The notes under the pieces: generated by a model
What the model saw: only the letters and a program-made list of their open reading frames with translations
Databases searched by the model: none
Told to the model about the DNA's origin: nothing
Part shown: piece after piece, positions 36,511 to 51,224 of the stretch
Layout: each line of letters opens with the position of its first letter
How positions within the stretch are numbered: the stretch's first letter is position 1
Program-made: the position numbers and the translations under genes
Source of the DNA: Syntrophomonadaceae bacterium
GTDB taxonomy: Bacteria > Bacillota > Syntrophomonadia > Syntrophomonadales > DTU052
DNA length: 58,262 nucleotides
Direction: 5' to 3'
Assembly: GCA_012729505.1 (NCBI GenBank)
Contig: JAAYDA010000007.1
Location: forward strand, 1-58,262

Positions 36511-37281
36511 TTGATTAACAAGGTAGAGATTTGCGGTGTGAATACATCTAATCTCCCGGTTCTCAAGAATGAAGAAATGAGAAAGCTTTTCGTAAAAGTT
36601 CAGCAAGGTGACAAAGAAGCCCGTGAAGACCTGATTCAAGGAAACCTTCGCTTGGTTTTGAGTGTAATTCAAAGATTCAGTAATCGAGGAGAGTATGTTG
36701 ATGATCTGTTTCAGGTGGGTTGTATAGGGTTAATAAAAGCGATAGATAATTTCGATCTTGGACAGAATGTGCGCTTTTCTACCTATGCGGTTCCTATGAT
36801 TATCGGAGAAATCAGAAGATATCTGCGGGACAATAACCCGGTAAGAGTTTCCCGGTCATTGCGGGATACTGCTTATAAGGCTCTGCAAGTAAGAGAAAGG
36901 CTGTTGGCCGAAAAATCTCGTGATCCGACTATTCAGGAGATTGCTGAGCAGCTGCTTATTCCTCAGGAACAAGTAGTATTCGCCCTTGATGCCATTCAAG
37001 AACCGATTTCTCTATTCGAGCCAATTTACAATGATGGCGGTGATCCTATCCTGGTGATGGATCAGATCAGTGATGATAAGACCAGTGACGATATTTGGCT
37101 GGAGGAAATCTCAATTAAAGAAGCTCTGGTCAGATTGGGTGAACGGGAAAAATTAATTCTCTCCATGAGGTTTTTTGAAGGCAAGACTCAGATGGAAGTA
37201 GCTGAGGAAATCGGCATCAGTCAGGCGCAGGTTTCGCGTCTCGAAAAGGCTGCATTAAAGCATATGAAAAAACATGTTTGA
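36511..37281 (+). CDS. sigG: RNA polymerase sigma-G, late forespore
   Basis: The 256-residue late forespore sigma factor. The N-terminal KVEICGVNTS...LPVL block distinguishes sigma-G from sigma-F. Region 2 (DDLFQVGCIGLIKAID) and the region 4 helix-turn-helix (QMEVAEEIGISQAQVSRLE) are complete. Start TTG after GAGAGGACGG. spoIIR begins 14 bases later, so the two are probably cotranscribed. A weak GAATA element at about 36443 could be part of a forespore promoter but is not convincing. Confidence 0.96.
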   Translation: MINKVEICGVNTSNLPVLKNEEMRKLFVKVQQGDKEAREDLIQGNLRLVLSVIQRFSNRGEYVDDLFQVGCIGLIKAIDNFDLGQNVRFSTYAVPMIIGEIRRYLRDNNPVRVSRSLRDTAYKALQVRERLLAEKSRDPTIQEIAEQLLIPQEQVVFALDAIQEPISLFEPIYNDGGDPILVMDQISDDKTSDDIWLEEISIKEALVRLGEREKLILSMRFFEGKTQMEVAEEIGISQAQVSRLEKAALKHMKKHV

Positions 37282-37295
37282 TAGGAGGCTGGAAG

Positions 37296-37853
37296 ATGAA
37301 ACGAATAATTCTTCTGGTAATTGCATTAGGAATAGGGTTTTCTTTATTTCAGCACCTGGCCGCTAGGCAGGAAGCGTTTACTCCCAATAACCTTATCAGA
37401 ATTCATGTGGTGGCCAATAGTGATTCAGCATTTGATCAGGATGTTAAAATAAAAGTCAAGGATCGTCTGGTAAACTGGCTGTCTCCCCAGCTGGCACAAT
37501 GCCGGTCTGCAGAAGAAAGTCGGCAAATACTGTCCGACAACATTGATCTGATACAGGAAGCGGCTTATCAGGAAGTTATAGCCAACCAGGGGAATTATGA
37601 AGCCAATATTATGTTGGGAGAGTATGATTTTCCCACTAAGACTTATGGTGATATAACCCTGCCACAGGGTAAGTACCAGGCCCTGCGGGTGGTTTTGGGT
37701 GATGGGACCGGGGAAAACTGGTGGTGTGTCTTATTTCCGCCTCTCTGCATAGGTAAGGATATGCCAGCTATCGAACGAGGGGATCCCCAATGGCTGCTGA
37801 GTACAATGTCCTCCAACGCTCGGAAAAAATTGGTCTCAAAAAGAGAACCTTAA
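37296..37853 (+). CDS. spoIIR: Stage II sporulation protein R (signal for sigma-E activation)
   Basis: A 185-residue secreted protein: signal sequence at about 1-20, then the SpoIIR core with NLIRIHVVANSDS. Made in the forespore, it crosses to the septum and triggers SpoIIGA. In B. subtilis spoIIR lies elsewhere; here it is next to sigG, and its target pair spoIIGA-sigE is just upstream, a compact signalling locus. I chose ATG 37296, with AGGAGGC upstream. Confidence 0.93.
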   Translation: MKRIILLVIALGIGFSLFQHLAARQEAFTPNNLIRIHVVANSDSAFDQDVKIKVKDRLVNWLSPQLAQCRSAEESRQILSDNIDLIQEAAYQEVIANQGNYEANIMLGEYDFPTKTYGDITLPQGKYQALRVVLGDGTGENWWCVLFPPLCIGKDMPAIERGDPQWLLSTMSSNARKKLVSKREP

Positions 37854-38031: not shown

Positions 38032-38307
38032 ATTAAGATATCGGACTTGAGAACCCGTGAGGTAGTCAACATTCAGGATGGCAAAAAAATGGGACCGATT
38101 AAGGATTTGGATTTGGATGTGGAAAAGGGCAGAATAAAGGCCCTTGTTTTGCCAGGGCCAAACCGGTTAATGAATTTTTTTACCCGTAAGGAGGACATTG
38201 TGGTTCCCTGGGAGCAAATAGTCAAAATAGGACGAGACGTAATTTTGATTGAAACGCTGCCCTATGGCGAAGTGGTGAGGAGTGAGGGGTTAGGGGTGAG
38301 GAGTTAG
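38032..38307 (+). CDS. ylmC: YlmC/YmxH family PRC-barrel sporulation protein
   Basis: About 91 residues with the PRC-barrel pattern of YlmC/YmxH (REVVNIQDGKKMG, then VPWEQIVKIGRDVILIE). Function unknown; found in spore formers. The start is unusual. Between the in-frame TGA at 38011 and TTG 38047 there is no ATG or GTG. TTG 38047 would lose the conserved KISDLRTR strand and has no Shine-Dalgarno. GGGGGG at 38017-38022 is well placed for ATT at 38032 (protein MKISDL) or ATT at 38029. The last nine residues (VRSEGLGVRS region) are coded by the first units of the heptamer array that follows. Confidence 0.82.
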   Translation: MKISDLRTREVVNIQDGKKMGPIKDLDLDVEKGRIKALVLPGPNRLMNFFTRKEDIVVPWEQIVKIGRDVILIETLPYGEVVRSEGLGVRS

Positions 38308-38680
38308 GCGAAAGGCGAGAGGCGAAAGGCGAGAGGCGAGAGGCGAGAGGGGAGAGGGGAAAGGGGAAAGGCGAAAGGCGAGAGGGGAAAGGGGAAAGGC
38401 GAAAGGCGAAAGGGGAAAGGCGAGAGGCGAGAGACGAGAGGCGAGAGGCGAGAGGGGAAAGGCGAGAGGCGAGAGGGGAAAGGCGAGAGGCGAGAGGCGA
38501 GAGGCGAGAGGGGAAAGGCGAGAGGGGAAAGGCGAGAGGGGAAAGGGGAAAGGCGAGAGGAGAGAGGGGAAAGGCGAAAGGGGAAAGGCGAGAGGCGAGA
38601 GGCGAGAGGGGAAAGGCGAGAGGCGAGAGGGGAAAGGGGAAAGGCGAGAGGCGAAAGGCGAGAGGCGAGAGGGGAAAGGC
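38275..38680 (+). repeat. Array of 58 seven-base repeats, purine-rich
   Basis: The 406 bases divide exactly into 58 heptamers with no slip. The first five (38275-38309) are GTGAGGA-like and lie within or at the end of ylmC. The other 53 follow GARAGGS, with only two one-off variants (38429 and 38555). The plus strand from 38310 to 38683 has no T, so no frame on either strand holds a stop codon. GG or GGGG runs recur every seven bases, allowing G-quadruplex or triplex structures. It ends 18 bases before the nrdR promoter. There is no spacer structure, so it is not a CRISPR array. Confidence 0.97.
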
Positions 38681-38700
38681 GAGTTTAAGTTAAAATTTGC

Positions 38701-38729
38701 TTGACCTATAATATATTATTTGATGTAAT
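38701..38729 (+). promoter_or_regulatory. Sigma-A promoter of nrdR-nrdD-nrdG
   Basis: TTGACC (38701-38706), 17 bases, TGTAAT (38724-38729). Confidence 0.75.
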
Positions 38730-38732
38730 AGA

Positions 38733-38778
38733 GGCATATATAGTAGGTGCGAATGAAATGGTGCACTATATATTGAGG
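38733..38778 (+). promoter_or_regulatory. Two NrdR boxes
   Basis: Two ATATAT-centred elements: CATATATAGT (38735-38744) and GCACTATATATTGAG (38763-38777). The second fits the known NrdR box (CACwATATwG type) closely, the first moderately on the minus strand. Their cores are 32 bases apart, close to three helical turns, the spacing usual for NrdR pairs. They lie just after the -10, suited to repression. Confidence 0.7.
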
Positions 38779-38786
38779 AGGCAGCC

Positions 38787-39263
38787 GTGAAGTGTCCTTT
38801 CTGCAGCGAGTTTGAAAGTCGGGTCATAGACTCCCGCAACACTGATGAAGGAACGGTGATCAGGCGTCGTCGGGAATGTGCTCAATGCAAGCGGAGGTTT
38901 ACTACGTATGAAAGACTAGAAGAACGCCCCCTGATGGTTATCAAGAAGGAAGGGAATCGAGAAGTATTTAAACGGGATAAGCTGATGCAAGGCATTTTAA
39001 AGGCTTTGGAAAAACGGCCGGTAGGCATCGAAACAGTTGAAAAAATGGTGAGTGATATCGAAATAGAGCTCAGAGATTCTTATGAAAAAGAGGTAAACAG
39101 TAAAGTTGTAGGTCAGAAGGTAATGGACAAGCTGCGGGTGATTGACGAAGTCGCTTATGTGAGATTTGCCTCAGTTTATCGCCATTTTACCGATGTAAAA
39201 GGCTTCGTTGAAACGGTCGAGCAATTAAAAAATGATCCGGATTTTGAGGAGGGTAAGATTTAA
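38787..39263 (+). CDS. nrdR: Ribonucleotide reductase repressor NrdR
   Basis: A 158-residue repressor: N-terminal zinc ribbon (CPFC at 3-6, CAQC at about 31-34) that binds the NrdR box, and an ATP-cone (about 49-139) that senses ATP/dATP. The GTG start follows GAGGAGG. It overlaps nrdD by one base (TAATG), so repressor and target enzyme share one transcript, and two NrdR boxes upstream suggest feedback control. Confidence 0.97.
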
Positions 39264-41278
39264 TGTTTGAGGTAATAAGGAAGAGAGATGGCCGTGAAGC
39301 TTCATTTGATCCTTCCAAAATAACTGAGGCGATTTTCAAAGCGGCCAAAGCCGAAGGTGGTGAGGATCGCCAAAAGGCTCTGGAATTAACGCTGGAGGTT
39401 ATGAAGGTTCTGGGTGAAGAGTTTGGCGGAAAAGGCTTTTCGGTGGAAGATGTCCAGGACATAGTGGAAAAAGTCCTGATTGAGAAGGGACATGCACGTA
39501 CCGCTAAGGCCTATATACTATATAGAGCAGAGAGAACCAGATACCGCGAAGGCAAATCTGATCTGATGGATGTAGTGGAGGAGATTCTCAAAGAAACCAA
39601 TCGAGAAAACGCCAATGTGGGCAATTCCCCTTCCGCCAAGATGCTGCAGATTGCCAGTGCCGCATCCAAACAATACTATTTGGATCGCTTGATAGCACCG
39701 GAGTTTGCCGAGGCCCACCGCAGTGGAGACATCCACATTCATGATCTGGATTTTTATGGCAAGACTCTGAACTGTGTTCAGATTCCTCTGGGACAGCTTT
39801 TGCAACAAGGTTTTAGTAATGGACACGGTTATATCAGACCTCCGAAAAGGCCGGCTTCAGCGGCAGCTTTAGCGGCTATTATTCTGCAGAGTTCACAGAA
39901 TGATATGTTTGGCGGCCAGTCTTTCCCATTCTTTGACCGGGATATGGCGCCATTTGTGGAAAATGCCAGTGATGGCGAGACTTATCAGGCCATGGAAGCA
40001 TTGATCTACAACCTTAATTCCATGCATTCCCGGGCCGGCGCCCAAGTGCCTTTTTCTTCCCTGAACATTGGAGCAGACACCTCGGATGGCGGCCGGAGTG
40101 TGGCGAAAAATATTCTTCTTGCCTATGATGCCGGTTTGGGAAATGGAGAAAACCCGATTTTCCCCAATATTATTTTTCGGGTCAAGGAAGGAATCAACCT
40201 TAATCCTGAAGATCCCAATTATGATCTTTTTCAGTTGGCCATGAGGGTGGCGGCCAAGCGCATGAACCCTACCTTTAGCTTTATGGATTCTTCATTTAAT
40301 CAGCAGTTTGGCTCAGATGTGGCTTATATGGGCTGCCGTACACGGGTAATAGGCAATCGTCACGGAGAGGCTGTAACTGAACGTCGAGGGAACCTGTCTT
40401 TTACTACTGTAAATCTTCCGCGTTTGGCCCTGAAATCCAAGGGTAGCCTGGGTGAGTTTTATCGTCTCCTGGAATCTACGGTAGCACTGGCATGTGAGCA
40501 GCTGTATCAGCGATATCGTGTTCAAGCTGATCTTAAGGTCAAGGACATGCCTTTTGTTATGGGACAGCGCTTGTATTTAGGATCAGATAATCTGAAGAGC
40601 TGTGATCCTATTAAAGAGGCCATAAAACATGGAACCTTATCGGTTGGCTTTATTGGATTGGCGGAGACTCTGGTTTCCTTGACCGGCAAGCACCACGGTG
40701 AATCAGATGATTCTCAAGCCATTGGTATTTCTATCGTTCAGTTCATGAGCAGGCTGGTGGAAAAAGCGGCCGAAGATTATGATTTAAATTATACGTTTAT
40801 CGCTACTCCGGCAGAAGGTCTGTCCGGCCGCTTTATTAAGCTGGATCGGGAACAATATGGGTTGATACCGGGAGTGACTGATGGAGAATATTATACCAAC
40901 AGTTTCCACATTCCCGTCAGCTATGATATCTCTTATATGGACAAGATATCCAAGGAGGGACCCTACCATAAGTATACAAATGCCGGTCACATAAGCTATG
41001 TAGAGTTTCCGGCACCTCCAATTAATAACGGTGAAGCGGTTCAGGCCGTAGTAAAACATATGAAAAACAGTGACATGGGATATGCGGGGATAAATTTCCC
41101 CATCGACTTTTGCGAAAGCTGCAGATATCTTGGGGTTATTGATGAGGATCAATGTCCTCAATGCGGTTCCCGTGAAATCAGAAGGGTCAGGAGGATAACC
41201 GGTTACTTGTCTACTGTTGATCGTTTTAATGATGCCAAGGTGGTAGAGCTGAGAAATCGAAAAGCTCACTGTTTTTAG
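39263..41278 (+). CDS. nrdD: Anaerobic ribonucleoside-triphosphate reductase, large subunit
   Basis: A glycyl-radical enzyme turning ribonucleotides to deoxyribonucleotides without oxygen. An N-terminal ATP-cone (about 3-95) gives allosteric control. The C-terminal zinc site has CESC and CPQC, and the glycyl-radical motif RRITGY carries G647. The 671 residues are complete. The radical is installed by NrdG, coded 9 bases downstream. Confidence 0.97.
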   Translation: MFEVIRKRDGREASFDPSKITEAIFKAAKAEGGEDRQKALELTLEVMKVLGEEFGGKGFSVEDVQDIVEKVLIEKGHARTAKAYILYRAERTRYREGKSDLMDVVEEILKETNRENANVGNSPSAKMLQIASAASKQYYLDRLIAPEFAEAHRSGDIHIHDLDFYGKTLNCVQIPLGQLLQQGFSNGHGYIRPPKRPASAAALAAIILQSSQNDMFGGQSFPFFDRDMAPFVENASDGETYQAMEALIYNLNSMHSRAGAQVPFSSLNIGADTSDGGRSVAKNILLAYDAGLGNGENPIFPNIIFRVKEGINLNPEDPNYDLFQLAMRVAAKRMNPTFSFMDSSFNQQFGSDVAYMGCRTRVIGNRHGEAVTERRGNLSFTTVNLPRLALKSKGSLGEFYRLLESTVALACEQLYQRYRVQADLKVKDMPFVMGQRLYLGSDNLKSCDPIKEAIKHGTLSVGFIGLAETLVSLTGKHHGESDDSQAIGISIVQFMSRLVEKAAEDYDLNYTFIATPAEGLSGRFIKLDREQYGLIPGVTDGEYYTNSFHIPVSYDISYMDKISKEGPYHKYTNAGHISYVEFPAPPINNGEAVQAVVKHMKNSDMGYAGINFPIDFCESCRYLGVIDEDQCPQCGSREIRRVRRITGYLSTVDRFNDAKVVELRNRKAHCF

Positions 41279-50783: not shown

Positions 50784-51224
50784 CGTCAATGATCAGGAAA
50801 ATGTCATATAGAGAATGGTGGGAGGCACACATATTTTAGCAGAAATTTGACCTCCGGCTTCGACCCGGATTTAATTCCACTTGCTCCCGGAATGAGAACC
50901 GGCAAATGCAACTGCTCAAGTTCGGCCTCCGAGCAGCACACCGCCAATTCGCCCTCCATGGCTCAGGAGGCGGACTCGGGACCTCCTGTCCCTCGGCTGC
51001 TCTTCTGCCTCACCTTCGCAGGTGTTTGCTCGGTTCTCATCCCAAAGAGGAAGTTCAGCGTTCCACGCCGAACCAAGCGGGAAGCACAAATCTCTTTGGT
51101 GAGATTTGGCTTCCGCCTGGCTACGCTGGAATTAATCTCGTGTCTCCGCATTCGGTTTCGGATTGTGAGGATGACATTTTCCCTTATGACTTGTACCATG
51201 ACATTATCGCTGATCAACAATAAG
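50784..51224. mobile_element. Non-coding insertion, MITE-like or relic IS
   Basis: This 441-base stretch interrupts the gap between nth and ileS. It is flanked by an exact 14-bp direct repeat (GATACATAATTTAA at 50770-50783 and 51225-51238). Its ends carry the inverted pair GGAAAATGTCAT (50796-50807) and ATGACATTTTCC (51171-51182), and a TGATCAG element near both outer ends (50790-50796; CTGATCAA at 51210-51217), with an extra TGACATT copy at 51199-51205. Repeated end motifs of this kind recall IS21-family termini. Composition is richer in C and G than the surroundings. Reading frames inside (up to 128 codons) look random. Confidence 0.6.

Follow-up and report, generated by a model that had tools for sequence, protein, structure and literature searches.

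A window of 58,262 nucleotides (the whole stretch of DNA analysed) from the draft genome of a Syntrophomonadaceae bacterium contains, between ymxH and nrdR-nrdD, 406 bases that consist entirely of seven-base units, which raises the question of how such an array has grown, what keeps it in phase, and whether it serves the genes beside it. The account that we consider likely is that of a largely neutral, lineage-specific satellite that grew by slippage or template switching at the trinucleotide AGG. The genes of the region all lie on the forward strand, in the order spoIIR, a PRC-barrel ORF (ymxH), the array, nrdR, nrdD and a radical-SAM activase-like ORF, and the relevant features are the following.

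37278-37853, + strand: spoIIR, upstream neighbour (PF09551)
38047-38307, + strand: ymxH, PRC-barrel protein of YlmC/YmxH type (PF05239, 3e-11)
38275-38680, + strand: GNNAGGN heptamer array of 58 units, G-rich on the + strand, natural unit AGGSGAR
38275-38309, + strand: five T-containing edge units (GTGAGGA GTGAGGG GTTAGGG GTGAGGA GTTAGGC) encoding the final ymxH codons and stop
38310-38680, + strand: 53-unit core of mixed AGGCGAG, AGGGGAA and AGGCGAA in random order, from unit parsing and order tests
38681-38786, + strand: nrdR promoter region with putative NrdR boxes, from the sister alignment; promoter-like matches at 38690-38719
38787-39263, + strand: nrdR (PF22811, PF03477)
39263-41278, + strand: nrdD, anaerobic ribonucleotide reductase (PF13597, 1.6e-190)

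The array and the 3' end of ymxH

The array is a real series of 58 heptamers in tandem: tiling of the 406 bases leaves no insertion or deletion, and Tandem Repeats Finder reports a period of 7 with 0% indels, as a sequence-only reading of this DNA had claimed from hand tiling. GNNAGGN fits 57 of the 58 units and GARAGGS 51, namely GAAAGGC (18), GAGAGGC (15), GAGAGGG (12) and GAAAGGG (6), and two units, GAGAGAC and GAGAGGA, occur once each. Chance can be ruled out as an explanation, because the longest exception-free GNNAGG run spans 35 units, whereas 100 shuffles of the window gave at most 2. The purity stressed in the same reading holds for four to five of the seven positions, but not for the third (A/G) and seventh (C/G) bases, which are nearly free. 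An Rfam search of the array for structured RNA gave no match up to E = 1. With head-to-tail 7-bp units that recur at many loci and are mostly non-coding, the array is a heptameric long simple sequence repeat.

The array is partly coding, because its first units have overwritten the end of ymxH: the ORF extends through the first 4.7 units and terminates at the TAG of unit 5, and the C-terminus of YmxH reads ..LPYGEVVRSEGLGVRS / ..GEVVRSEGLGVRS here vs ..NPYNEIHHLNE (..NEIHHLNE or similar) in the sister genus. The own genus is represented by one genome among the relatives, and the comparison was made through four sister-genus genomes. Alignment with three of these places the first array units on the ancestral ymxH stop, GAGTGA, and the ymxH-nrdR interval lacks the array in all three genomes in which it is readable; the stretch read at the fourth locus has a different sequence upstream of nrdR.

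The number or order of the units could in principle be a short-read artefact, since the 2.45 Mb genome is a draft of 80 contigs in which another array breaks contigs C22 and C27. However, the longest exact repeat inside the window array is only 49 bp, which ordinary reads can resolve, and its flanks are syntenic with the sister genomes, making mis-assembly a quite improbable explanation.

Unit linkage, unit order and phase

When the core is cut as AGG-S-GA-R, it is composed of AGGCGAG (27), AGGGGAA (17), AGGCGAA (7) and three singletons. S and R are strongly linked within one unit (p = 1.6e-7), while R and the following S are unlinked (p = 0.25), and the other arrays of the genome similarly hold 0.314 bits within NGNN (0.051 shuffled) vs 0.108 bits across AGG (0.049 shuffled). 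Since linkage exists within units and hardly extends across AGG, it is intact modules that are exchanged, and most of the breaks fall at AGG. The S-R linkage also rules out a uniform array that diversified by point mutation at two hot positions.

By LZ complexity (19 vs 17.0 shuffled) and longest repeated word (6 vs 6.4) the unit types stand in random order, and their autocorrelation likewise reveals random order and no excess of identical neighbours. Clustering of identical neighbours is the usual sign of single-unit slippage; it is strong in several Methylotuvimicrobium buryatense arrays and in arrays of Halomonas, Granulosicoccus and Luteimonas, whereas other external arrays lack it. Other arrays of the own genome, such as L033 with its 10-unit higher-order period, do display block duplication, so that the family is shaped by more than one process. 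The argument from order and linkage is carried by one assembled array, and assemblies tend to break at long arrays that contain long internal repeats, which biases what can be sampled.

Ordinary tandem duplication, by unequal sister exchange or contiguous slippage and with no special realignment at AGG, is the standard account of bacterial tandem repeats and agrees with the clear period of L033. For the window array it is already disfavoured and we regard it as unlikely, as the random order comes with no surplus of identical neighbours or of long repeated words; furthermore, simulated contiguous duplication produces long repeated words unless the unit type switches at a rate of at least 1-3% per unit per event, yet the invariant positions remain almost unchanged. 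When template switching was simulated in a toy model that required a terminal match of 3 nt and jumped often, S-R carried 0.55 bits and R-next S 0.02 bits, and LZ came near the observed value. A match of one or two bases lets the S-R linkage decay under frequent jumping, a match of 14 or more makes the array too repetitive, and a match of 7 is not cleanly excluded. These models are toys with chosen parameters and no fitting, and as such illustrative; within them, template switching on a terminal match of about 3 nt (AGG) fits the array and contiguous block duplication does not.

We therefore favour growth from a seed, probably a short GTGAGG-type sequence at the ymxH stop codon, through many rounds of slippage or template switching while DNA is synthesised. 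About three matching bases, those of the invariant AGG, would suffice for the growing end to re-prime, whichever unit it meets. Because re-priming at AGG could occur on any unit, whole modules (NGNN) would be joined in random order and the phase would maintain itself. Growth by slippage or recombination, as proposed in the sequence-only reading, remains the best account of the array, considering the unit linkage, the random order and the toy models. A counterpoint to this account is that several Bacillota families share the GNNAGGN core, with few matches for the reversed-pattern control, a recurrence that would not be expected from plain drift of an arbitrary heptamer.

The same reading had taken the strict seven-base phase as a sign of a register-keeping mechanism, which did not survive comparison with the related arrays. 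Nine phase changes (offsets of 1, 2, 3, 5, 6, 12 and 13 bp), from nine sister arrays or array pairs of the own genome, stand against 373 in-phase junctions, corresponding to about 2.4% per junction or roughly one slip per 42 junctions. At this rate no slip is expected in 57 junctions with P = 0.26, therefore its absence from the window array is not statistically special. Base-paired realignment at the conserved G..AGG positions would keep the phase without a special device.

A dedicated RNA-templated, telomerase-like polymerase that adds units and uses AGG as a realignment anchor would also be in line with the whole-unit linkage, the random order, the breakpoints at a 3-nt anchor and the strict period. 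On the other hand, the two reverse-transcriptase matches of the own genome are not distinctive, full-length RVT_1 is present in three of the four array-free sister genomes, ordinary slippage accounts for the same facts, and phase slips do exist, which leaves this possibility barely credible. The broader proposal, in which whole AGG-anchored modules are added singly from a mixed pool by a dedicated polymerase activity, either RNA-templated or a strongly processive form of template switching, that operates in this lineage but is missing in the sister genus, is also very improbable.

A dispersed repeat family and its relation to the nrd locus

The window array belongs to a lineage-specific, dispersed and mostly intergenic family of G-rich degenerate heptamers (GNNAGGN), of which it is the longest fully assembled member found. 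Four consecutive GNNAGGN units are matched 290 times in the own genome, compared to 0 times for the reversed-pattern control. Arrays were studied through loci and stretches of this genome; about 35 are visible to BLAST and 53 distinct arrays of at least three units were found in the stretches read, giving a family of about 35-50 arrays. Only 3 of 38 arrays lie within ORFs, as called mechanically. The four sister-genus genomes have 0-2 three-unit matches each and essentially no arrays, so the search of host and relatives suggested earlier finds dozens at home and next to none in the sister genus. The dominant unit differs from locus to locus, as expected for arrays that grow locally from small seeds. 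Most sense-oriented G-rich arrays start at most about 20 bp from the stop codon of the upstream gene, and in several the first units themselves spell the stop (G-TGA-GG, GT-TAG-G), although this proximity is partly expected, because GTRAGG units hold stops in every frame and the ORFs were mechanically called.

Beyond this lineage, 31 of 249 genomes of the phylum have a four-unit GNNAGGN match, including same-order relatives with GTRAGGR types, and exact GARAGGSx6 is found in cyanobacteria, gamma- and betaproteobacteria, Chloroflexota, planctomycetes and others; the same motif across such distances need not reflect common descent. Several routes of dispersal were rejected. Direct copying between loci has as its best case a 62-bp exact match to an array on C42, which is compatible with shared unit types (p = 0.04-0.11). 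GARAGGSx5 occurs in only 2 stretches among 2.9 million viral contigs, which speaks against phage carriage; a search for plasmid carriage of the adjoining nrdR-nrdD found no match; and REP/RAYT or Y1-transposase mobilisation is contradicted by the lack of a PF01797 (Y1_Tnp) match in the own genome.

The arrays have other repeats for neighbours. A dispersed element of ~71 bp at 51048-51119 of the window has about 35 further own-genome copies (e.g. L055:1601-1671 and L033:1401-1471) and two hairpins, GTTCGACG..CGTCGAAC and AAATCT..AGATTT; it is also lineage-specific (37 matches in the own genome, 1 weak match in a sister genome), and about ten of its copies are adjoined by heptamer arrays in this genome devoid of Y1 transposase. 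Octamer (GAACGGGR) and decamer (ACGCAGATTW) short repeats follow some heptamer arrays (C4:1994-2032, C12:50842-50869, C60:444-461), forming composite repeat-rich intergenic spacers. At L050:1505-1743 (C70), three four-unit heptamer blocks with similar flanks are spaced about 101-110 bp apart, that is, a larger tandem repeat contains the heptamers. The end of C22 (L034) and the start of C27 (L037) both lie in an array of the largely private unit type GGGAAGC, and probably belong to a single array, about 50 units long, at which the assembly broke. Finally, L051 (C63:5455-8509, - strand) includes an ORF of ~486 aa that looks by eye like glutamyl-tRNA synthetase and takes its final residues from an array, as ymxH does.

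The emphasis that the sequence-only reading placed on the nrd promoter was right in position, as the array does lie upstream of the nrdR-nrdD promoter, but not in specificity: with dozens of arrays genome-wide, a unique nrd-locus element is ruled out. A regulatory element of nrdR-nrdD, G-quadruplex-prone or protein-binding and with a copy number that tunes expression, would be suggested by the distance of about 20 bp from the end of the array to the promoter-like sequence downstream, a mean G4Hunter score of 1.24 (best 25-nt window 2.16) and two-tetrad patterns that can cover 76% of the array. However, the canonical four-tract motif (G3+N1-7 x4) has 0 matches in the array, which excludes a canonical G-quadruplex, and dozens of similar arrays adjoin other genes in both orientations. 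Moreover, the array-free sister genomes retain in alignment an NrdR-box-like block close to the nrdR start codon. The motifs CATATATAGTAGGTGC and GTGCACTATATATTGAGG at 38681-38786 are presumably NrdR boxes, and because the block close to the start codon is common to array-free genomes, the array lies outside the presumed nrdR operator. A regulatory role is accordingly rather improbable. As regards a phase-variation contingency locus, which would have its repeat in the ORF or promoter spacer of a surface or variable gene, the array reaches the 3' end of ymxH and stays outside the promoter-like sites, and a change in unit number would affect only the tail of YmxH. The satellite is probably largely neutral and most likely persists because of its site, with the ymxH stop on one side and an nrdR promoter left intact on the other. 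The locus itself is probably of little consequence for the cell.

Comparison with known heptamer repeats

Among LSSR classes, heptamers have been reported as the most abundant in the majority of surveyed genomes, and polymerase slippage has been proposed for them (PMC4679880, PMC4692102). Heptamer repeats are reportedly over-represented in many bacterial genomes, and their mechanism is not agreed upon. Arrays that overlap stop codons have been published for Xanthomonas and Nostoc (PMC4692102) and for TAACTGA repeats (PMC4679880). The GGGNATC / GGGGA(C/T)T repeats of Xanthomonas and Nostoc (Rehm et al. 2015, PMC4692102) are likewise G-rich, degenerate, dispersed and mostly intergenic, and, as here, are found next to unrelated genes, on the coding strand and close to or across stop codons. 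Their core differs from G..AGG. (GNNAGGN), the GGGNATC class has four G-tracts of at least 3 with short loops, a pattern absent from the window array, and their arrays reach up to 26 units, compared to 58 here (PMC4692102).

The TAACTGA direct repeats of Beggiatoaceae, Cyanobacteria and Bacteroidetes (MacGregor 2015, PMC4679880) also form dispersed heptamer arrays with a patchy distribution across phyla, some of which overlap the stop codon of the upstream gene, and long arrays extend to 43 units in some species. Unlike the window array, they have another, nearly invariant sequence and are mostly found just upstream of start codons. The cyanobacterial STRR heptamers of Calothrix and Nostoc, as cited in PMC4692102, are tandem, degenerate and intergenic too but presumably differ in sequence, and the likeness to STRR drawn in the sequence-only reading holds as an analogy.

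A closer relative of the motif occurs in the same order. In the relative G005 (single contig, 2,936,195 bp), loci L221-L236 carry a dispersed element of ~110 bp, AGTAAGAAAAGTGAGGAGTGAGGGGTAAGGGGTGAGGGG..TTTCCTACTACATCTTACT..CTCACTTTTCATC, with the same GNNAGGN heptamers in an internal GTGAGGAGTGAGGGGTAAGGGGTGAGG stretch. Within that element, which has inverted-repeat-like ends, the heptamers form a short and fixed component, whereas the window array is free-standing.

Because its unit types can be told apart, the window array records its own history: bases are linked within units, exchange at AGG is free, and the order is random. This signature offers a testable separation of 3-nt re-priming from contiguous duplication, also for other arrays of degenerate heptamers. 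The repeat class is already known, and what the present array adds to it is a motif family, its length at this locus and the module and order signature.
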